Positions 49,578 through 63,459 of a stretch of 64,000 nt of DNA are shown here, one piece after another; the stretch's first letter is position 1, and each line of letters begins with the position of its first letter. The notes below the pieces were generated by a model. It worked only from the letters and a program-made list of their open reading frames with translations, did not search any database and was not told the DNA's origin. The stretch spans positions 1 through 64,000 of the forward strand of contig JANSXA010000014.1 in the NCBI GenBank assembly GCA_024743175.1. The letters are read 5' to 3'. Position numbers and translations under genes: made by a program. The stretch comes from Pseudomonadaceae bacterium (GTDB lineage: Bacteria > Pseudomonadota > Gammaproteobacteria > Pseudomonadales > Azotimanducaceae).

Positions 49578-50777
49578 CTAGGACGCGAGGGCTACGTTTG
49601 CGGGTGCTCGGAAGTCCGTTCTACCCGGTACATAAGTAGCCATCCTGGGCACTTCCCGTAGCGTGATACACAGGTCTTTCAAGCCGCGCTGTTCGGCATC
49701 GCGCTCTACCAGGCCGCAAATATGCTGGGCTACGTTTGCGCCGGTAACACATTGCAGCATGCCGTACTCCTCGTTAATTCGTGCTCCGGCCAGGTAGGCA
49801 TCTGCACCAGCGGCGTTGAAACGTGCGTAAGCAATATTCAACCCTGGCGCGCCGGCATCCAGCAACATGTCCATGACCATTGAACACTGATCCCGTTTAG
49901 CCCAGGCGGACAGGCAAACCTGTTCTTCCAGAGGCACAGTATTTGTTTGCAGAACTTCCACACCGACGCCGCGACCCTGACCGCCAATATCAAACACAGA
50001 CTGATCCCGCCAATGGGTATGACCACTCAAGTGGTCTATGGCATTGATGATCTGCTGCATGTTTGCATCGTAGTGGTGGTGCGAAATCCTGCTGGGTAGA
50101 TTGAACATGCCGCGATCAATTTTCAGCCGGTACATGAAACCACGCCCGGGCAGATGTAGATCGCCGGCTTTAGCCATTGCCTCGAAGACGCTGTCGGCAT
50201 CACTTTCTTCCGTGATCACCATCATCACTTCTTTTTCGTGCTCTTTGGTGATGCGCAGCCATCCCAGTCGATCGCGCAGACCGCGCCCTTCACAGTAGTA
50301 AACTACCGGCCCGTGGGTGCCGGAATTGATCGCTGCTTTGGAAACCCGATCAGCATTGTTGTGGCCTACGATGGCCAGAATAATGCTCAGATCTTCTGTC
50401 AGGCTGTGTTGGCCACTGGTCACACCGGCGCCTTCGCGACCAGGCCAGACGTGAAAATCGGAGCCCAGATATACGGAGTCACAAGGGGTGCTGAATACTG
50501 CGCCAGTGGCTTGCTGATGTAGGCGTCCAGTCTCAACAATGGTGCCCACCAGCCGTGACACATCAGCATCGGGGACCAGCATCTGCAGCATGGTTTTTGC
50601 CGGGCTGATGGGTGGCAGCCATCGCTTCCACCAGTGATCCTGCAACAAGGTGCCGCGAGCTTTCCAGACCAGAGCACTGGTGCCCGGATCTTCAAGCACC
50701 TCGGGCAGAACACTGCTGGTGCTGGCGTTGGGTAAGATAGCTGTAACAATCGAAAATTTGTCGTTATTGGTGAACAT
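49578..50777 (-). CDS. Triple PII-like domain protein
   Basis: The 399-residue soluble protein appears to hold three PII/GlnB-like ferredoxin folds, at about residues 7-105, 129-222 and 285-383. The second is clearest: ILAIVGHNNADRVSKAAINS, then a T-loop-like CEGRGLRDR, a VMMVITEESDADSVFEAM strand-helix, and a PGRGFMYRL end that parallels GDGKIFV of GlnB. PII proteins sense ATP/ADP, 2-oxoglutarate or other ligands and bind membrane partners. Its ATG overlaps the stop of the DUF1538 gene by one base (TGATG), so they are coupled. The ligand is unknown. Confidence 0.75.
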   Translation of the reverse strand: MFTNNDKFSIVTAILPNASTSSVLPEVLEDPGTSALVWKARGTLLQDHWWKRWLPPISPAKTMLQMLVPDADVSRLVGTIVETGRLHQQATGAVFSTPCDSVYLGSDFHVWPGREGAGVTSGQHSLTEDLSIILAIVGHNNADRVSKAAINSGTHGPVVYYCEGRGLRDRLGWLRITKEHEKEVMMVITEESDADSVFEAMAKAGDLHLPGRGFMYRLKIDRGMFNLPSRISHHHYDANMQQIINAIDHLSGHTHWRDQSVFDIGGQGRGVGVEVLQTNTVPLEEQVCLSAWAKRDQCSMVMDMLLDAGAPGLNIAYARFNAAGADAYLAGARINEEYGMLQCVTGANVAQHICGLVERDAEQRGLKDLCITLREVPRMATYVPGRTDFRAPANVALAS

Positions 50778-52696
50778 CAGGTTGCCTCCGCTTCAATCAG
50801 TTCGGCATCGTCTGCAAGAGTCTCGTCGGTGTTATCCCGCTGACTGTACTGTGTGTATAACCCTACTGTTAAAACGGTGAGTATCGGTCCTACTGAAGCC
50901 AGAGCCAGTATTCCAAAACCATCTGAGACGCCGGGCACGTTTGCGCCCACACCAAGACCCATAGCCAGCACTAACGGTACGGTTATTGGGCCGGTTGTGA
51001 CCCCAGCACTGTCCCAACTGAAGTTGACAAAGCTATGTGGTGATAACCAGGTGAGTACCAGAACTAAAAGATAAGGTGGAATCAGCATCCAGATCAGAGG
51101 CAGGTTGTAGGCCATTTTAAAGATACCCGCAGCGATGCCGAAGCCAACACCGACAGCAACACTCTGCATCAGCAGCTTCTTACGGAATGCGCCGACGGTG
51201 ATGCGTTCTACTGTGTCTCCCAGCGCGTTGAGTGCAGGCTCGGCCAGGGTTGCGCCGTAGCCGAGGAAAAAGGCAAAGCCGATGGCAACAAATTTACCCC
51301 AGTGGTCGCTGAACAGGGGACCCTCAACATGGTCAAGTCCCCAGGGTAAGATCTCTGCAAACGCAACGGGTACGTTGCTGCCTAACTGACCGCCCAGCGG
51401 TGTTAAACCCAGCGCAATACCCAGGCCGAACAGCGTCATACCAGCAAAAGCAAACAGCACGCCAATACCTACGTCATTTCGGGGTGCCATACGCTGGCGC
51501 AGCACTAAGCGCAGCACGATGTACAGGAACAGACACAGTGGAATGATCGCGCGTAATGCATCCATACCTGCGGCACTGAGTTTGTCTGAAAAATTGCTGT
51601 CCTCGTCCCAGGTCTGGTCGCTGATAACTTCGAAGTCGCGCTGGTACAATTTCTTGATGGTCAGATCCGGCTTCTCAACTGTGATAATGCCGTTTTCCAG
51701 CTCGGCGGCACCACCATGAAACTCAAGGACATAACCTTCTGGTAGTTTGCCGCTGTTCAGATATTCCGCGTATTCAGCTGGGCGGATCGGTTCAAGGCTT
51801 TTTTCCAGTGTAGGCTTGCTGGCGTTGTCCTGAACACTGTTTTCAATTTCTGTGGAACCGGTGTAGTGCGCCGCTCCCCAGTAGTCCTGTTGGGCATAAT
51901 GGAAAAGTGACAGGCATAAAACGGCCAGAATCGGGAACAAAGAAGCCAGCGTTACGATGCCGAAACCGGAATGTCCACCACCACCGCTGCCGCTACTGAC
52001 AACACGGCAGACACCGATGCCTAACGCGAGCACTAACGGCACGGTAACCGGTCCGGTGGTGACCGCGCCACAATCCCAGGCTAGACCGAGGACATCTGCC
52101 AATACCGGAACACGGGAAAAATAGAACGACAGGGCCAGTAGCAGGCCGACCACAGGGATCGCGAGATACTTTAGTGGCCAGGCAAAAAAGAACCGTAACA
52201 CACCGATCATCACGGCTAGGCCGACACCAACGCCAACGGAACCGACAAGCTGACCGGAGAAGTCGTTCAGCAGACTGTACAGCAGGGGTGCCTGGTCGGC
52301 TTTTACACCAGCGCCGGCAGCTTTCAGAACTGCGATGGCGGGTTCAGCAAAGGTAGCGCCTACACCCAGCAGAAACGCAAACAGTAGAATGACGGGCATG
52401 CGGCTGTTTTTTGGCAGAATAGAGCCGATTTCCTCACCCAGTGGCATCAGGCCCAGGCGCAGGCCTTCCATGAAAAACATAAGACCTACTGCGACAACAA
52501 AAATGCCAATTGCAATCATGCCGGCGTAAACAATCGGTAACTGCAGAATCAGCAGCTGAAAGATAATGAGGTACGCCACAATGAACCAGATACCTTCCAC
52601 CTGATTCATGAAGTTGCGTTTCACATAGGGCCAGAGAATACGCAAAGTATCCCGGGCGCCCAGTTTGAATCTGGGGTTGTCCATCATGTCTGCCAT
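50777..52696 (-). CDS. DUF1538 membrane protein, internally duplicated
   Basis: The 639-residue protein has many membrane segments in two halves joined by a hydrophilic stretch (about 275-375). Each half carries the same two signatures: GVGATFAEPA at 111 and GYGATLAEPA at 479; then WDCGAVTTGPVTVPLVLA at 207 and WDSAGVTTGPITVPLVLA at 561. That repeat architecture is typical of transporters and channels. DUF1538 has no settled function, and in other genomes often lies next to PII-like genes. ATG 52696 is preferred; the frame is open further up without similarity. Confidence 0.8.
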   Translation of the reverse strand: MADMMDNPRFKLGARDTLRILWPYVKRNFMNQVEGIWFIVAYLIIFQLLILQLPIVYAGMIAIGIFVVAVGLMFFMEGLRLGLMPLGEEIGSILPKNSRMPVILLFAFLLGVGATFAEPAIAVLKAAGAGVKADQAPLLYSLLNDFSGQLVGSVGVGVGLAVMIGVLRFFFAWPLKYLAIPVVGLLLALSFYFSRVPVLADVLGLAWDCGAVTTGPVTVPLVLALGIGVCRVVSSGSGGGGHSGFGIVTLASLFPILAVLCLSLFHYAQQDYWGAAHYTGSTEIENSVQDNASKPTLEKSLEPIRPAEYAEYLNSGKLPEGYVLEFHGGAAELENGIITVEKPDLTIKKLYQRDFEVISDQTWDEDSNFSDKLSAAGMDALRAIIPLCLFLYIVLRLVLRQRMAPRNDVGIGVLFAFAGMTLFGLGIALGLTPLGGQLGSNVPVAFAEILPWGLDHVEGPLFSDHWGKFVAIGFAFFLGYGATLAEPALNALGDTVERITVGAFRKKLLMQSVAVGVGFGIAAGIFKMAYNLPLIWMLIPPYLLVLVLTWLSPHSFVNFSWDSAGVTTGPITVPLVLAMGLGVGANVPGVSDGFGILALASVGPILTVLTVGLYTQYSQRDNTDETLADDAELIEAEAT

Positions 52697-52853
52697 CTGC
52701 CTTCCATTGCTTTCAGCTAACTTAGGGGTTATCGGCACCAGGGCTGGAGACTTGAGCCGAACATCTAAGGGTTTTCTGCAATAGCGCGATGTTGATGATC
52801 GCGTTAGCCTCATAGTTGAATATGAGATTTAAGAGCCGGGAGACTTGCGCCAT

Positions 52854-56615: not shown

Positions 56616-58718
56616 TCAGTGTTTGGTCAAAGGCGTATTTAAGATTCGAGATGCATTAAGCATCACGATCAGTGAGCTTGCTGACATGCCCAGCGCCGCG
56701 GCCCATGGTGGCGCATAACCGAAAGCCGCCAGGGGTATTGCAATGAGGTTGTAACCCAGCGCCCACAACAGATTTTCATGCATGATTTTCTGTGTGCGTG
56801 CACCGATGTTGAAAAAATCAGTGATGGCCCCCAGCCGCCTTGTCAGTAACATGACGTCTGCCTTTGATTTCACCAGATCCGAGGTCTCCATGGTGGCAAC
56901 GGATATGTCAGCGTTGGCCAGCGCTGGCAGATCATTTACGCCATCACCAACGTACATGACGCCGCCGGTCGTTTGCTGTGCAGCTTTCAGCACTTCGGGT
57001 TTAGCTTCCGGCTGGCTCGTTGCTATAAAACTGATGCCAACCTGCTGTGCCACTGCAGCGCAGTTTTCGGGGTTATCACCGCTGAGCATCTGGACTGCGA
57101 GACCGCGCTTTTTCAGGTCAGCAATTGTGCCCTGTGCATCTTCGCGAATATCACTGGTCAGATGGAAAACTGCTGCAGGCGTGTTGTCCACCGCCAGGTA
57201 AACAAGTTTACTTGCCGCGTTTGAGCGAGGGATAAAAGCACAGAATTCAGCGCTGCCGATGCGAACCTGGCGACCATCCAGTTGGCCTGATATGCCTTGT
57301 CCGGCCTGAATATGTATATTGGTAGCCGGTACAATGGTATTTCTCTTAAACGCCTGAGCGAGCGGATGTGATGAATGAGCCTGCAAACCGGCAGCCCAGT
57401 CAAGGCAGACGTTCTGATCAAAATCACCCAGTACTTCTACCTGCTCAATTCTGGGGCGTGGATGCGTCAGGGTTCCGGTTTTGTCAAAAAACACCTGGGT
57501 CAGTGAGCGTGTGATTTCAAGTGCACGGCTGTTTTTCACCACGATGCCACCCTGGCGCAGTCTTGTAAGCGCAGCTGTCAGTGCGGCGGGTGTTGCCAGC
57601 GAAAGTGCACAGGGACAGCTTACGACCAGGACGGCCAGGGCCGCAGACAGCGCGTGCTCAGGAGATATCTGCAGCCATACCCAGTAAGTTGTGGCGGCAA
57701 GTGCGAGGATGCTGGGTATAAAGACACGGGCGACTCGGTCGGCTATAGACGCCAGTGAGTGTTTCGCCTCAAATGCGGTTTGTGCCAGTTGATCTATCTC
57801 TGCTGCTCGGGAATGGGCCAGATCAGCGGTGACGTTGAGTTGAAAGGCCGCGCCGCGATTCAGAGTGCCGGCATAAATCAGGTCGCCGCTGGTTTTATCC
57901 TGCCAGTCGCTCTCACCTGTTAGCAGGGCTTCTTCGAGTGTGGCGTGGGTACCTGCAAGCGTGCCATCTACAGGCACGATGGCCCCTTCTTCTATCCATA
58001 GCTGATCGCCCGCTGAAACCTGCAGCAGAGCTGTTTCAACATATTGTTCATCAACAATGCGTAACGCGGTGCGTGGCATGCTGGCTATCAGACTGTCAGC
58101 AACGCCCAGGCGCTGGCGAAGACGTTGCTCAAGGTAACGTGCGCCCAGCATCAGGAATGTGAACATCACCACTGAGTCATAGTAAACCTCGCCACTGCCT
58201 GCGAGTGTGTGCCACAGGCTGACGCTGAATGCGATGGTGACGGCCAGCGCAATGGGTGCGTCCATATTCAGTCCGTGCCGAATAGAGGTCAGTGCACTTC
58301 TGAAGAAGGGCACAGCGCTGTAGACGACTACCGGAATACAGAATATCAGAGCGGTGAACTCCAACAGGCGACGTATGCCTTCATCCATGCCCTGAAACAT
58401 CCCGGCGTACAGCGCACCCTGCACCATCATGACCTGCATCATGCCCAGACCGGCAACACCCAGGCGTTTGAGCAGCGTGTGGCTTTCATGCCACACCATG
58501 GATGAATCGCCAGCGAGCTGAGGGTGAAAGCCAGCTAACTCGATTTCTTCGATGAGCGTTGCACTGGCTAAAGTGTCAGCATGTGTAACAAATACCTGGC
58601 GCCGCACCGGATTGAACTGCAGATTCTCTATGTCGCGCAGGTGCGCAAGTGCGTTACTGATCTTGTTACTGCAAGCTGCACAATGCATGTCGGTAACGCT
58701 GATGGTCGTGACGGTCAT
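56616..58718 (-). CDS. ccoI: Copper-translocating P-type ATPase CcoI
   Basis: The 700-residue P1B-type ATPase has an N-terminal metal-binding CAAC at residues 13-16, the membrane CPC (VVSCPCALSLATPAAL), the phosphorylation motif DKTGTLTHPRP, the HP motif in HSSHPLAQAF, and VGDGVNDLPALANADISVA. It exports copper to the periplasm for the oxidase CuB site. It overlaps the small gene in the ccoH position by four bases. Confidence 0.95.
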   Translation of the reverse strand: MTVTTISVTDMHCAACSNKISNALAHLRDIENLQFNPVRRQVFVTHADTLASATLIEEIELAGFHPQLAGDSSMVWHESHTLLKRLGVAGLGMMQVMMVQGALYAGMFQGMDEGIRRLLEFTALIFCIPVVVYSAVPFFRSALTSIRHGLNMDAPIALAVTIAFSVSLWHTLAGSGEVYYDSVVMFTFLMLGARYLEQRLRQRLGVADSLIASMPRTALRIVDEQYVETALLQVSAGDQLWIEEGAIVPVDGTLAGTHATLEEALLTGESDWQDKTSGDLIYAGTLNRGAAFQLNVTADLAHSRAAEIDQLAQTAFEAKHSLASIADRVARVFIPSILALAATTYWVWLQISPEHALSAALAVLVVSCPCALSLATPAALTAALTRLRQGGIVVKNSRALEITRSLTQVFFDKTGTLTHPRPRIEQVEVLGDFDQNVCLDWAAGLQAHSSHPLAQAFKRNTIVPATNIHIQAGQGISGQLDGRQVRIGSAEFCAFIPRSNAASKLVYLAVDNTPAAVFHLTSDIREDAQGTIADLKKRGLAVQMLSGDNPENCAAVAQQVGISFIATSQPEAKPEVLKAAQQTTGGVMYVGDGVNDLPALANADISVATMETSDLVKSKADVMLLTRRLGAITDFFNIGARTQKIMHENLLWALGYNLIAIPLAAFGYAPPWAAALGMSASSLIVMLNASRILNTPLTKH

Positions 58719-58930
58719 GGCGCGGCGTCGTCCGGTGCTGTGTTGTCAACTGAAGTGTGATCGACTGATTGGTTATCACTGGAATTCCGCCAGCTGGTTT
58801 TTGACATGGGTGCCTGATCATCAAGAATGTTCTGATCGCTGGACGTGTAAGCAAAGTAGAACATAACGCCACCGAAGCAGACGCTCGCCAGTGGGATACA
58901 GATGACCAGCGCAATCATGAATCGCTTCAT
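58715..58930 (-). CDS. Small membrane protein in the ccoH position
   Basis: The 71-residue product has one membrane segment (residues about 5-28) and a short polar tail rich in Ser, Asp and Thr. It sits exactly between ccoG and ccoI, overlapping each by four bases, where ccoH/fixH usually lies. FixH/CcoH has an N-terminal membrane helix and a periplasmic domain of over 100 residues; this protein would keep only the first part. It may be a reduced CcoH or an unrelated small subunit. Confidence 0.7.
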   Translation of the reverse strand: MKRFMIALVICIPLASVCFGGVMFYFAYTSSDQNILDDQAPMSKTSWRNSSDNQSVDHTSVDNTAPDDAAP

Positions 58931-60342
58931 CGTGCGTCCCCGGTGTTCATCGGTCCCAGGAAAGTTGTTTTTTCAGTAATGCAGGATTCATTGGACTCCT
59001 GACAAACCCTGATTTCGACTGGCGTGCTGCCCGGCTCTGGTGATTCAGCCAGCAGCCGAAGAGTAAGGTTCTCTATCTCACCGGCTGGAATCAAAGCCTC
59101 GTAATCGCGATCCAGCTTGACCCAGTCCGGCTGAACAAGTTCAAGCGTGTAAGTGCTGTCCTGCTGTGATTTATTCATGATTTTCAGCTGGTAGTCGTTG
59201 CTGGTGCTGCCGTCAGCCTGTGTCTGGAATAGTTGCCCGCGTTCACGCAGCACGTCGAAGGCAAATGTTTCGCGATCAAACACCATAAAGATGAAGGCAC
59301 TGATTAACGCCAGACAAACAATTGCGTAACCAACCGTGCGACCACGAACCCAGTTTGTTTTGTTGCCGGCTAATTCGTGTTCCGTTGTGTAGCGAATCAG
59401 CCCTGGCGGGTAGTCCATTTTTTCCATGACCTGATTGCATGCATCAATGCAGTGCGCGCAACCGATACATTCGTACTGCAGGCCGTTGCGAATATCGATA
59501 CCTGTTGGACAGACCTGTACACACAATTGGCAATCGATACAGTCGCCGAGCTGGGCTTGCTCAGTATTTCGCTTACGGGATCCCCGGGGCTCACCGCGTG
59601 CCGCGTCGTAAGAAACTATCAGCGTGTCTTTGTCGAACATCGCAGATTGAAAACGTGCGTAGGGGCACATGTACAGACAAACCTGTTCACGCAGCCAGCC
59701 GGCATTGATATAGGTTGCGCAAGTAAAAAACAGTATCCACAGGGCTGCCCAGCCACCAACTTCAAATTGCGCTATAGAAAGCGTGAGCTCCCGAATCGGT
59801 GTGAAATAGCCAACGAAGGTCAGACCAGTTAGAAATGCCCAGCCCAGCCAGAGGGTATGTTTGGCAGTCCGGCGACGAAACTTGTTCCAGGACATGGGCG
59901 CCTTTTCAAGGCGAATACGCTGATGGCGCGCGCCTTCAGTGATTTGTTCGACCCACATGAAGATCGCCGTCCAGACGGTCTGCGGACAGGTGTAGCCACA
60001 CCAGATTCGCCCGACTATTGTCGTGACGGTGAACAGGCCGAAAGCTGCAATCATTAATATCCAGCCCAGCAACCAGAGGTCCTGAGGCCAGATTGTGAGA
60101 CCAAAAATATGGAATTGTCGGGCAGGCAGGTCAAACAGAATGGCCTGTCGATCACCCCACATAACCCAGGGCATCAGGAAATAGCCGAGCAGTAGAGGCC
60201 AGCCTGAGTAGAAGCGCAGTTTCTGATAGAGGCCACCAACATAGCGGGTAAATATTTTTTCGCGCCGCTGGTATAGGTCTTGTGGTGCAAAACCCTCTAA
60301 CTTTACAACTTCTTCAGGTACTTCTGGCCCCTGGCTTTTCAC
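58927..60342 (-). CDS. ccoG: cbb3 oxidase accessory protein CcoG
   Basis: The 471-residue membrane protein has about five membrane segments, the CGYTCPQTVW segment, and two 4Fe-4S binding groups in CIDCQLCVQVCPTGID and CIGCAHCIDACNQ. The C-terminal part is the immunoglobulin-like FixG domain. CcoG reduces copper(II) for the oxidase. It overlaps ccoP and the following small gene by four bases each. Confidence 0.96.
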   Translation of the reverse strand: MKSQGPEVPEEVVKLEGFAPQDLYQRREKIFTRYVGGLYQKLRFYSGWPLLLGYFLMPWVMWGDRQAILFDLPARQFHIFGLTIWPQDLWLLGWILMIAAFGLFTVTTIVGRIWCGYTCPQTVWTAIFMWVEQITEGARHQRIRLEKAPMSWNKFRRRTAKHTLWLGWAFLTGLTFVGYFTPIRELTLSIAQFEVGGWAALWILFFTCATYINAGWLREQVCLYMCPYARFQSAMFDKDTLIVSYDAARGEPRGSRKRNTEQAQLGDCIDCQLCVQVCPTGIDIRNGLQYECIGCAHCIDACNQVMEKMDYPPGLIRYTTEHELAGNKTNWVRGRTVGYAIVCLALISAFIFMVFDRETFAFDVLRERGQLFQTQADGSTSNDYQLKIMNKSQQDSTYTLELVQPDWVKLDRDYEALIPAGEIENLTLRLLAESPEPGSTPVEIRVCQESNESCITEKTTFLGPMNTGDAR

Positions 60343-61208
60343 TGAGAAAGGCTCCTGATGTACGCCGCCAGAACGTGTATCTTGTCTTCACTGAGAATAT
60401 CCGATTGAGCTGGCATATTGCCGTTGCGGCCGTGTGTCAGAGTGAAATTGATCTGTTCCTCACTACCCCCATAAAGCCAGATATCGTTGGTCAGATCCGG
60501 TGAGCCGAAAACCTTGTTGCCTTTACCCTCTGCGCCATGACAAGCGACACATAACATATCGTATTGAGGCTTGGCTGCTGCGGCTTTGTCCGCATCATGG
60601 TCCTGCCCGGACAGCTTGAGAACGTAGTGAGTCATGTTAACAACACCGTCTTCGCCAAGCGCTGGACCCCAGGGCGGCATCGCCGCTACCCGGCCGTCAA
60701 TCAGAGTCGTTCTGATGGCCTGATAATCGCCACCCCATTGCCACTCTTCGTCAGTCAGATTGGGGAATCCAAATGCGCCGTTTGCGTTCACACCGTGGCA
60801 GGTGGAACAGTTATTCAGGTATAGGCGACGACCAACCTGCATAGCGCGTCGATCGCTCTGCAGGTCGCCTTCACTGATGCTGCCGAGTTCGGCATAAAGC
60901 GGTGCAAAGCGTGCTTCATGTTGCGCCACTTCCGCGTCGTGCTGAGCTGTGGAACTCCAGTTTCCGCCGCCATCCCAGTTCCCCAGACCACCGTAGTAGG
61001 CAACGTACAACAGCATGAAAATGATGGAAGCGACAAACATACCAACCCACCACATGGGTAGGGGGTTGTCCAACTCCTCAATACCGTCCCAGCTGTGACC
61101 AGTTGTGCCTTTGTTATCTTTATGCCTATTGGCAAACAACAACCAGGCCATGAACGCAAGGCTTAACAGCGTTCCCAGAACTACAAACCAATGCCAACCT
61201 GCACTCAT
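60339..61208 (-). CDS. ccoP: cbb3 oxidase diheme subunit III
   Basis: The 289-residue product has two N-terminal membrane segments with NPLPMWW between them, then two c-type heme sites, CSTCH and CVACH. It passes electrons from soluble carriers to CcoO and CcoN. It overlaps ccoQ at the start (ATGA) and ccoG at the end. Confidence 0.96.
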   Translation of the reverse strand: MSAGWHWFVVLGTLLSLAFMAWLLFANRHKDNKGTTGHSWDGIEELDNPLPMWWVGMFVASIIFMLLYVAYYGGLGNWDGGGNWSSTAQHDAEVAQHEARFAPLYAELGSISEGDLQSDRRAMQVGRRLYLNNCSTCHGVNANGAFGFPNLTDEEWQWGGDYQAIRTTLIDGRVAAMPPWGPALGEDGVVNMTHYVLKLSGQDHDADKAAAAKPQYDMLCVACHGAEGKGNKVFGSPDLTNDIWLYGGSEEQINFTLTHGRNGNMPAQSDILSEDKIHVLAAYIRSLSQ

Positions 61209-61363
61209 GATTGACCTCCTTCTGATTTTTTCGAACTGGAATTGTCCTCTTCCATGATGCTGCGTCCGAGCGACTCAAAGCGTTTGCGGTTACTGGGCTT
61301 GTAAACCCAGAAGAACAGCAACGAGAAGCTGGCAACCATAAAAATCAGGGCAACAATCTGCAT
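61205..61363 (-). CDS. ccoQ: cbb3 oxidase subunit CcoQ
   Basis: A 52-residue frame begins MQIVALIFMVASFSLLFFWV and continues YKPSNRKRFESLGRSI, the usual CcoQ form: one membrane helix followed by a charged YKPxxRKxFE stretch. CcoQ stabilises CcoP in the complex. It sits between ccoO and ccoP with tight spacing. Confidence 0.93.
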   Translation of the reverse strand: MQIVALIFMVASFSLLFFWVYKPSNRKRFESLGRSIMEEDNSSSKKSEGGQS

Positions 61364-61373
61364 ACTCACAATC

Positions 61374-62003
61374 TTATTCTCCTGATGTGCTTGCGGGGGC
61401 TTCGTAGTTGCGCATATCCAGACCCAAGGTCTGCAGATAAGCGATAAGAGCCTGGGCTTCCGTGCGACCAGCCACTGCTGCCTGTGCGCCCTCTATCTCT
61501 GCGTCTGTATAGGGTGTACCCAGCGCTTTGAGCGCGCGCATTTTATCTGCGGTGCCTTCACCGCTTAAGGTGTTCTCAAACAGCCAGGGATAACCCGGCA
61601 TATTTGATACTGGAACGACGCTGCGCGGATCCGCCAGATGCGCCGCGTGCCAGTCGTCGCTGTAGCGTCCGCCGACGCGCGCCAGATCGGGGCCAGTGCG
61701 TTTGGATCCCCACAGGAACGGGCGTTCGTAAACATCCTCTCCGGCGACAGAGTAATGTCCGTAGCGCTGAGTCTCCGAACGCAGGGTTCTTACCATTTGC
61801 GTATGGCAGCCGACGCAACCCTCGCGGATGTAAATATCGCGGCCTTCCAATGTCAGTGCACTGTAAGGCTTAACGGTATCGGTTGGTTTGGTGCTGCCGT
61901 CGAACACCAGCGGAAAGATCTCGATCATGCCGCCAACGCTGACCGCAAACAGAGTCAAACCAATTAGCAGGCCAACCCGAGTTTCGATTAGTTCATGTTT
62001 CAT
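61374..62003 (-). CDS. ccoO: cbb3 oxidase monoheme subunit II
   Basis: The 209-residue product has one N-terminal membrane anchor and the heme site CVGCH at residues 63-67; Met in [10 protein letters not shown] is the likely distal ligand. It transfers electrons to CcoN. It follows ccoN by one base. Confidence 0.97.
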
Positions 62004-62004
62004 G

Positions 62005-63459
62005 TTATGCGCCTCCTGCTGTTGCGGGCTCTAACATGGGTGTGGACGGGGATACGGTTTCATCCCGGGTTTTGCCTTGCGTTGTCATATAGACATTGAA
62101 AGCCATTACACACATACCGATGAAGAAGATGGCGCCGCCGATGAAGCGTGCGTAGTAGCCGGGATAGCTCGCTTCAACCGCCTCAGCAAAGCTGTAGGTC
62201 AGCGTGCCGTCGATGCTGGTGGCGCGCCACATCAGACCCTGCAGTAAACCGTTGACCCACATTGATGCGATGTAGATAACCGTGCCCAGCGTCGCCAGCC
62301 AGAAATGTAAATTGATCAGTTTGACGCTGTACATTTCGCCTGCCTTGCGGCCAAACAGAATCGGAATCAGGTGGTACATCGCCCCCATAGTGACCATCGC
62401 CACCCAACCCAGAGCGCCGGAGTGCACATGGCCGATGGTCCAGTCAGTGTTGTGGGATAGCGCATTGATGGTCTTTATGGACATCATCGGACCTTCAAAG
62501 GTCGACATACCGTAGAACGATATGGATACGATCAGAAATTTGATGATCGGGTCGGTGCGAAGTTTGTCCCAGGCACCGGACAGCGTCATGATGCCGTTGA
62601 TCATGCCGCCCCAGGAGGGTGCCAGCAGTACCAGAGACATGGCCATTCCCAGACTTTGAGCCCAGTCAGGTAAAGACGTGTAGTGCAGGTGATGTGGTCC
62701 AGCCCAGACGTAAATGGCGATGAGTGCCCAGAAATGCACAATCGACAGACGATAGGAGTAAATCGGTCGGCCAGCTTGTTTTGGCACGAAGTAGTACATG
62801 ATGCCAAGAAAACCTGCAGTCAGGAAAAATCCGACCGCGTTGTGACCGTACCACCACTGCACCATGGCATCGACAGAGCCTGAATAAATCGAATAGCTTT
62901 TGGTCATGCTCACCGGCAGCGCCAGAGAATTGAAAATATGCAGAATGGCTACGCCGATAATCAACGCACCAAAAAACCAGTTAGCAACGTAGATGTGTTC
63001 CACTTTACGTTTGGCGATGGTGCCGAAAAACGAGATGGCAAACGCAACCCACACCAGGGTGATGAGGATGTCGATGGGCCACTCCAGCTCAGCATATTCC
63101 TTGCTGGTGGTGATACCCAAAGGCAGCGTGATGGCTGCGCTCAATATCACCAGTTGCCACCCCCAGAATACAAACCAGGCCAGGCCTCGTGATAACAGCG
63201 GCGTATGGCAGGTGCGCTGCACGACGTAAAATGCACTGGCCATCAGCGCGCTGCCGCCGAATGCAAAAATCACCGCGTTGGTGTGGAGTGGCCGCAGGCG
63301 ACCGTAGCTGAGGTAGGCGATATCAAAGTTGAGTGCCGGCCAGGCAAGTTGGCCAGCTAATAATAATCCTACACCCATGCCGACAATGCCCCAGACTATG
63401 GTGGCAATAGCAAAATAGCGTACGACACCTAAGTCGTAGGTGGGTTCTTCGACCGTCAC
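62005..63459 (-). CDS. ccoN: cbb3 oxidase catalytic subunit I
   Basis: The 484-residue heme-copper oxidase subunit has about twelve membrane segments with [14 protein letters not shown] (low-spin heme ligand), [26 protein letters not shown] (CuB ligands) and [13 protein letters not shown]. cbb3 oxidases have high oxygen affinity and pump protons at low oxygen. The start is GTG at 63459 ([16 protein letters not shown]). It heads ccoNOQP-GHIS. I saw no perfect FNR/Anr box in the 110-base gap upstream. Confidence 0.98.

Follow-up and report, generated by a model that had tools for sequence, protein, structure and literature searches.

Genes of the DUF1538-PII Locus

The subject of this analysis is a pair of genes on the minus strand, at positions 49,578 to 52,696, of a 64,000-nucleotide stretch of contig JANSXA010000014.1 (assembly GCA_024743175.1), the whole of which is referred to here as the window. 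The upstream gene (50777..52696) encodes a membrane protein of 639 amino acids (aa) belonging to the DUF1538 family, in which counterparts of the antiporter proteins UmpA and UmpB are fused and for which 14 transmembrane (TM) segments (7 + 7) are predicted from Pfam, NCBIfam and hydropathy. An alternative start, the upstream ATG at 52813, would extend it to 678 aa. The UmpA-like half (residues 31–264; 51905..52606), identified by NCBIfam and alignment, carries the motifs AEPAI and WDCGAVTTGP and is followed by a long hydrophilic linker (residues 266–380; 51557..51901), delimited by alignment and hydropathy and predicted from charge bias to lie outside. The UmpB-like half (residues 378–619; 50840..51565) carries AEPAL and WDSAGVTTGP, and from NCBIfam and hydropathy its predicted topology is opposite to that of the UmpA half.

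The downstream gene (49578..50777) encodes a protein of 399 aa, termed here the triple PII, which was defined by its open reading frame (ORF), Pfam and profile comparison. Profile comparison and pocket counts divide it into segment 1 (residues 1–112; 50442..50777), with a partly kept pocket, segment 2 (residues 125–232; 50082..50405), with the motifs GxGxR (G164, G166, R168) and PGxG (G211, G213), and segment 3 (residues 280–386; 49620..49940), in which the T-loop and B-loop glycines are mostly lost. Alignment places a stretch with the motif QIIxAIDxLKGxxxWR directly after segment 2 (residues 233–262; 49992..50081). The translational coupling of the two genes through TGATG, as described in the first-pass annotation, was confirmed on the minus strand: the genes overlap by one base (stop at 50779–50777, ATG at 50777–50775), and a Shine-Dalgarno-like GGAGG (50785..50789, minus strand) lies inside the DUF1538 gene at its 3′ end, 7 bases ahead of the ATG of the triple PII. 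Consensus promoters in the sequence numbered four with 2.5 expected, and terminators two with 4.0 expected.

Three PII Domains in One Chain

In Pfam, the P-II family (PF00543) matched the 399-aa protein with an E-value of 4e-9 (37.2 bits against a cut-off of 25), the best stretch being residues 132–208 of the middle segment. Scanned singly, segment 2 of the window protein matched with an E-value of 9e-5, segment 1 weakly (0.0036) and segment 3 not at all, so that three PII domains are not evident from one sequence and relatives were needed. An alignment of 78 triple-PII proteins was therefore used, comprising six from a search of the same class and 72 of the 74 complete ones from a contig scan (both described below), along with a comparison set of 29 PII sequences with no DUF1538 gene in any of their loci. 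Against this set, profile comparison gave probabilities of 97.1, 93.3, and 96.7% for segments 1, 2, and 3 (E 6e-11, 3e-7, and 4e-10), with alignments running end to end over 93–97 columns, and the segments matched each other with 97–99%. Controls against the same set remained low, at 2.8% or less for reversed or column-shuffled segments and 5.3% or less for CutA, HMA and the membrane-protein linker; direct comparison of the segments with CutA and HMA did not exceed 9.7%.

Within the family, 63 of the 78 members matched P-II in Pfam at an E-value of 0.01, and a search of the PDB with the family profile returned PII proteins, the best being 2eg1 (E 3e-6). By sequence profile, the 399-aa protein is thus made up of three PII domains in a row, as had been proposed from the window alone; a finding that segments 1 and 3 lack the PII fold had been named at that time as one that would speak against the proposal, and it was answered by profile homology rather than by structure model. 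HisG_C, a domain with a PII-like fold, was also matched by nine of the 78 proteins.

Association of DUF1538 With PII Genes

The association was examined from both sides. With the 399-aa protein as query, matches were obtained in 40 of 369 genomes belonging to the same class; in six of the 40 (the window's own included) the match extended over most or all of the protein, the rest being short and confined to the middle segment. Besides that of the window, 29 of these loci were fetched with flanks of 1.5 kb (L007–L035; twelve further match rows were left out), and a DUF1538 gene was present in 27. One of the two exceptions, L027 (extended as L333), is at a contig start, the gene for a CBS-pair protein then following the PII gene; the other is taken up below.

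From the DUF1538 side, genome contigs were scanned with an alignment of DUF1538 proteins, which gave at least 589 stretches and at least 563 relatives, the best 80 of which were used, and this contig-scan set for that reason leans to the near relatives of the window. A complete triple-PII gene lies directly downstream on the same strand in 74 of these 80 and one cut by the contig end in three more; L133 has two single PII genes instead, and at L055 and L120 the contig ends first. DUF1538 was also found in 125 of the 369 class genomes, and one locus from each of 80 of these, among the matches listed, made up a class set that favors the split type. In 77 of these 80, a same-strand PII ORF is no more than 300 bases away; the distance is about 300 bases in L192, and in L181 and L240 the contig ends. 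Combining the two sets, a PII gene lies directly downstream of DUF1538 in 156 of 156 judgeable loci of 160 (78 of 78 in each set of 80). Co-occurrence of the two families had been set beforehand as a test, and these counts bear it out: the DUF1538-PII link is near-obligate and widespread across bacterial phyla. Hosts of the triple form belong to twelve phylum-level groups (Pseudomonadota 30, Verrucomicrobiota 29, Bacteroidota 5, Spirochaetota 4, and eight more with one or two each). Among viruses, 15 pattern matches included no relative.

Three Layouts of the Regulator

The loci fall into three layouts. In type A, found in the class loci, UmpA and UmpB are separate or form a short fusion and are followed by one PII gene of approximately 116 aa and then by a gene for a CBS-pair protein. 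By similarity, this last gene comes right after PII in 77 of the 80 class loci (L164–L243), with an overlap of four bases in 54; the proteins looked at are 130–146 aa long (e.g., L243:5063–5503), and the one scanned matched Pfam CBS with an E-value of 1e-18. It is missing from three class loci: L181 and L240, at contig ends, and L220, which is cut by the contig end and has a fused DUF1538 gene followed by PII and then by a second DUF1538 ORF. A comparable CBS gene was found neither in the 80 contig-scan loci (the best 80 of at least 563) nor in 18 extended class loci. Type B has a fused UmpAB with two PII genes, seen in 13 of 13 such loci, although the DUF1538 ORF of L048 is only 328 aa. Type C has a fused UmpAB with a triple-PII gene, as in the window; in one type C locus (L038) the DUF1538 reading is split over two ORFs.

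In a quick tree of 72 sampled DUF1538 proteins, type C (35 rows, support 89) and type B (12 rows, support 91) each occupied one side of a branch, the layouts thus following the tree. Of the 369 genomes, the highest score with the model of the characterized UmpA (422.7 bits against a cut-off of 490) was that of L334, which has UmpA, UmpB, PII, and CBS in a row. In the type B locus L045, a gene (476–2929) for a CPA1-type Na+/H+ exchanger with a C-terminal cyclic-nucleotide-binding domain, as identified by Pfam, overlaps the start of the fused UmpAB gene. ORFs of similar size are found at the same place in L047 and L050, the Pfam scan having covered L045.

A domain tree over 112 columns, weakly resolved, recovered segments 1, 2, and 3 each as one group (support 75, 93, and 98), which fits a single old fusion that has since spread widely. 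Segment 1 was placed beside the type A PII and segments 2 and 3 together, with GlnB/GlnK outside except for one mislabelled row. This row, L268, was a stray member of the GlnB set, itself DUF1538-linked, which is still contained in the tree and was placed among PIIa.

Two type A-like genes were seen apart from DUF1538. L350 (genome G032) has a type A-like PII gene with a CBS gene alongside; the preceding 1.5 kb lack DUF1538, and the DUF1538 pair of this genome (L181) is at the edge of another contig. Its resemblance to type A and its CBS neighbor are the reasons for leaving L350 out of the 29-sequence PII set. The other (L332:5054–5449) adjoins an ORF whose start resembles a cytochrome bd oxidase subunit.

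Conservation of the PII Pockets

Residue equivalents were numbered by GlnB and counted over the 78 triple proteins, alongside the clean set of 29 PII sequences. Counts made with a GlnB set containing L268 agreed at the positions repeated, apart from the alignment of Y51 in segment 2, R101 in segment 1, and R103 in segment 3. Segment 2 has the equivalents of G35, G37, and G89 in all 78 proteins, that of G87 in 76, and that of K58 in 69. The GxGxR at the base of the T-loop is invariant among the 78 relatives of this segment and the PGxG of the B-loop almost so, and the loop from G166 to K182 measures 15 residues in all 78 compared with 20 in GlnB, the loops of segments 1 and 3 being variable. 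Segment 1 has G35 in 64, G87 in 66 (the window protein has Ala here), G89 in 77, and G37 in none, while segment 3 has G27 in 76, G37 in nine, G89 in 11, and neither G35 nor G87 in any. The glycines typical of the T-loop base and B-loop of the PII superfamily are accordingly found in segment 2, partly in segment 1, and not in segment 3. The three pockets are therefore unequal, that of segment 2 being best kept, that of segment 1 partly so and that of segment 3 degenerate; segment 3 probably has a structural role.

Q39, Y51, K58, K90, R101, and R103 are the ligand and modification residues of canonical GlnB/GlnK. Segment 2 retains only K58, in the 69 proteins mentioned. Its Q39 position is Arg in 78 of 78 and its K90 position Phe in 58 and Lys in none; Y51 is without a counterpart (Arg or Lys in one alignment, unaligned in another), and R101 and R103 are unaligned. 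In segment 1, the R101 position is aligned and is Arg in 0 of 78; in segment 3, it is Arg in four of 78 where aligned, R103 being unaligned. Lys at K90 was found in none of segments 1–3 (78 each), type A PII (77), PIIa (13), or PIIb (7). Most pocket glycines are also found in the PIIs with a single domain (types A and B), with His at G87 in seven of seven PIIb; R101 is never Arg in them where aligned, and R103 is Arg in three of 77 type A and two of seven PIIb where aligned.

Mean pairwise identities of 0.28, 0.43, and 0.25 were obtained for segments 1–3 and 0.44 for the stretch after segment 2. W256 and R257 in this stretch are invariant (78 of 78), and on alignment comparison the WR stretch was not detected in type A PII.

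The DUF1538 Membrane Protein

Two copies of DUF1538 (PF07556) were identified in the 639-aa protein by Pfam (E 6e-108, 359 bits against a cut-off of 22.6). In NCBIfam, the UmpA and UmpB equivalog models (NF041627/NF041628) scored best on residues 31–264 (210.7, cut-off 490) and 378–619 (180, cut-off 500), respectively, and as both scores are under the cut-offs the protein is a relative rather than an equivalog. Averaged hydropathy, a simple method, gave 7 + 7 helices with the N-terminus inside by charge and placed the motifs AEPA and WDxxxVTTGP of one half on the opposite side of the membrane from those of the other. By analogy with inverted-repeat carriers, the UmpA and UmpB halves are probably inverted relative to each other. 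An alignment of 49 proteins of types B and C shows no variation in the AEPA and WD motifs and almost none in the TTGP region that follows. The linker between the halves is much shorter in type B proteins (alignment A2) than in type C, and the halves of type A match the same Pfam and NCBIfam models as the window protein. A sequence-based search found no PDB chain that credibly matches the DUF1538 protein.

It had been stated in the first-pass annotation that no experimental function was known for DUF1538, which is contradicted by published work: UmpAB of Halomonas zhaodongensis has been described as a heterodimeric Na+(Li+, K+)/H+ antiporter on the basis of everted vesicles of Escherichia coli KNabc (Meng et al., 2017; PMC5484666). 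The term PII or P-II does not occur in the main text of that article. By homology, a putative antiport function can be assigned to the DUF1538 protein of the window.

Proposed Mechanism and Its Alternatives

We consider it fairly probable that the two-gene operon encodes a cation/proton antiporter regulated by a single-chain triple PII that senses an adenyl nucleotide. In such a system, the single-chain UmpAB, with its two seven-helix halves, would exchange Na+ or K+ for H+, and the triple PII, as three trimer subunits fused head to tail in one chain, would form a cytosolic pseudo-trimer. CBS pairs commonly bind adenosine compounds, and for this reason the CBS partner of type A points to an adenyl nucleotide; segment 2 may be the site that binds one (AMP-, ADP-, or ATP-like), 2-oxoglutarate not being expected in the canonical manner. 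A bound nucleotide would order the short T-loop of constant length in segment 2, and this loop, perhaps with the WR stretch, would dock on the cytoplasmic face of UmpAB and block or release ion exchange. As to the sign, our guess would be inhibition at low energy charge, sparing the proton motive force. The precedents of GlnK-Amt and SbtB-SbtA suggest by analogy that the triple PII would sit on the cytoplasmic face of UmpAB and make exchange nucleotide-dependent. More broadly, and tentatively, DUF1538 antiporters may represent an unreported PII-gated class that almost always has its own adenylate module next door (PII and CBS, two PIIs or a triple PII). In the triple form, with its one main pocket, a single nucleotide and a single short T-loop would gate one fused antiporter.

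A number of observations weigh against this proposal. The window protein is a diverged fused relative, antiport having been measured only for the distant split UmpAB, and in the DUF1538 tree type A (25 rows) and types B/C stand on opposite sides of a very long branch. Antiport was obtained in E. coli carrying umpAB alone (PMC5484666), and a neighboring PII gene is thus not needed for transport. Canonical ligand residues are absent from segment 2, where Q39 is Arg, K90 mostly Phe, and Y51, R101, and R103 have no counterpart, and the binding of a nucleotide is therefore uncertain. Against a narrow GlnB/GlnK set of 28 sequences (30 minus the DUF1538-linked L268 and one divergent member), the probabilities for segments 1–3 were 95, 39.5, and 89%, the higher figures with the 30-sequence set, which contained L268, being inflated. 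The type A-like PII gene of L031 (extended as L332), the second exception on the PII side, stands in 10.5 kb of sequence that lack DUF1538. What lies upstream of type B operons is variable, with an AcrB-like pump in L051, and the similarity of DUF1538 and PII protein distances (r 0.85, 41 loci) is a value without species-tree control.

The low UmpA/UmpB scores, the very long branch between types A and B/C and the extra long linker of type C could also mean that the type C transporter carries some other substrate (e.g., bicarbonate, ammonium, or an organic ion), that Na+/K+ antiport is confined to the Halomonas branch and that PII still acts as the gate. We regard this as unlikely given the invariant AEPA and WD and nearly invariant TTGP of the 49 type B/C proteins, the matching of the type A halves by the same Pfam and NCBIfam models and the CPA1 Na+/H+ exchanger gene that overlaps the type B gene in L045. 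The named type C hosts moreover include Cerasicoccus, Sinimarinibacterium, Hahella, and Gynuella, which we take to be marine or salt-tolerant.

A role for the triple PII as a structural component of the antiporter or as an aid to its assembly, with no small molecule bound and with the fusion simply fixing the stoichiometry, is also improbable. Loss of the pocket in segment 3 and in part in segment 1 would agree with such a role, as would the near-obligate coupling, the lack of K90 in every row and the rarity of Arg at R101 (the four third segments) and R103 (the five type A and PIIb proteins). The GxGxR and PGxG of segment 2 are, however, almost without exception over twelve phylum-level groups, and a ligand-free role would hardly explain this. 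In type A, furthermore, PII is accompanied by a CBS protein, a module that typically binds nucleotides. A further point against this role is that UmpAB was functional in E. coli in experiments without the neighboring PII gene (PMC5484666). The Pfam family name, nitrogen regulatory protein P-II, would suggest a canonical nitrogen sensor, responding to 2-oxoglutarate and ATP and modified at Tyr51, that ties ion exchange to nitrogen status. This is highly improbable, as in segment 2 Q39 and K90 are replaced and Y51, R101, and R103 are without counterparts, as a separate canonical PII with these residues is encoded on contig C11 of the same genome, and as the DUF1538-linked PIIs group apart from GlnB/GlnK in the domain tree.

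Comparison With Known Systems

The UmpAB of H. zhaodongensis resembles the window protein in belonging to the same membrane family, in having two homologous 7-TM halves and in its overlapping genes, but is composed of two separate proteins that form a heterodimer (PMC5484666), whereas in the window protein a long linker joins the two halves into a single chain, and its UmpA/UmpB scores are low. A PII-family protein encoded beside a membrane transporter is also found in SbtB-SbtA, where SbtB is reported to bind AMP, ADP, ATP, cAMP, and c-di-AMP, with the phosphates of ATP coordinated by two arginines, and to insert its T-loops into SbtA as an AMP-bound trimer (PMC10117731). SbtB is, however, a single-domain homotrimer with a Na+/bicarbonate symporter as its partner, unlike the three fused domains, short T-loop and DUF1538 partner seen here. 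SbtB is characterized by an R43xxR46 phosphate clamp and a C-terminal loop of the CGPEGC type. The T-loop of the triple-PII family, in an alignment that did not include SbtB itself, has the invariant R168 and Arg or Lys at position 170 in 71 of 78, and the neighboring gene is DUF1538 rather than SbtA.

GlnK closes the Amt channel via its T-loops (PMC3198391). The GlnK-Amt system differs in its canonical sensing of 2-oxoglutarate, ATP, and ADP by a homotrimer, most of the binding residues of which are not conserved in the triple PII. PII-NG, encoded with CzcABC, is similar to the window pair in that a PII protein occurs with a proton-cation antiporter, but CzcABC is an RND-type heavy-metal efflux system, its membrane protein is unrelated and PII-NG has a single domain (PMC7726332). 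No report of a DUF1538-PII link or of a triple-PII protein was found in the open-access literature, most subscription papers being outside this scope, and as far as that literature shows the triple PII is a new domain arrangement.

Well-studied PII transporter partners carry ammonium or bicarbonate, and their PII proteins are homotrimers with all pockets alike. The DUF1538-linked family would tie PII to the balance of sodium, potassium, and protons and suggests a little-studied switch for ion exchange. As a natural trimer-like chain, the triple PII has three sites that can be mutated one by one, which makes it testable what number of sites has to be occupied for a transporter to be opened or closed, a question hidden in homotrimers. 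The one functional study of DUF1538 found in this analysis, that of UmpAB, may likewise gain a missing part, namely a regulator whose gene stands next door in relatives.

Genome Context

The genome of the window organism encodes, besides the canonical PII on contig C11, a third and divergent PII-like ORF (contig C13, 39090–39374; L351), which is unlike both GlnB and the triple PII and whose loose first match contained TGA. No diadenylate cyclase domain was found in this genome, which is 98% complete, and cyclic di-AMP is for that reason an unlikely ligand in the window organism.

Usp, cytochrome c, and cbb3 oxidase genes are present near the pair, the first-pass annotation having recorded the Usp and cbb3 genes; its use of these neighbors as a pointer to energy sensing did not hold, as they are not conserved with the pair. 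A homolog of the adjacent Usp gene was found in one of the 80 contig-scan loci and one of the 80 class loci, and the small cytochrome gene had no homolog in either set of 80 (the contig-scan loci being, for both counts, the best 80 of at least 563). Four genes of the cbb3 cluster, the ones searched for, were found in none of the 160 loci within flanks of up to ~6 kb, these genes lying farther off in the window. All three were accordingly rejected as conserved partners, and the CBS-pair gene of the type A relatives is a better pointer to adenylates than these neighbors. The cbb3 oxidase cluster itself (56616–63459) is an ordinary one with COX1, FixO, FixP, and FixG-like genes, and a 700-aa ORF beside it (56616–58718) reads like a metal P-type ATPase.

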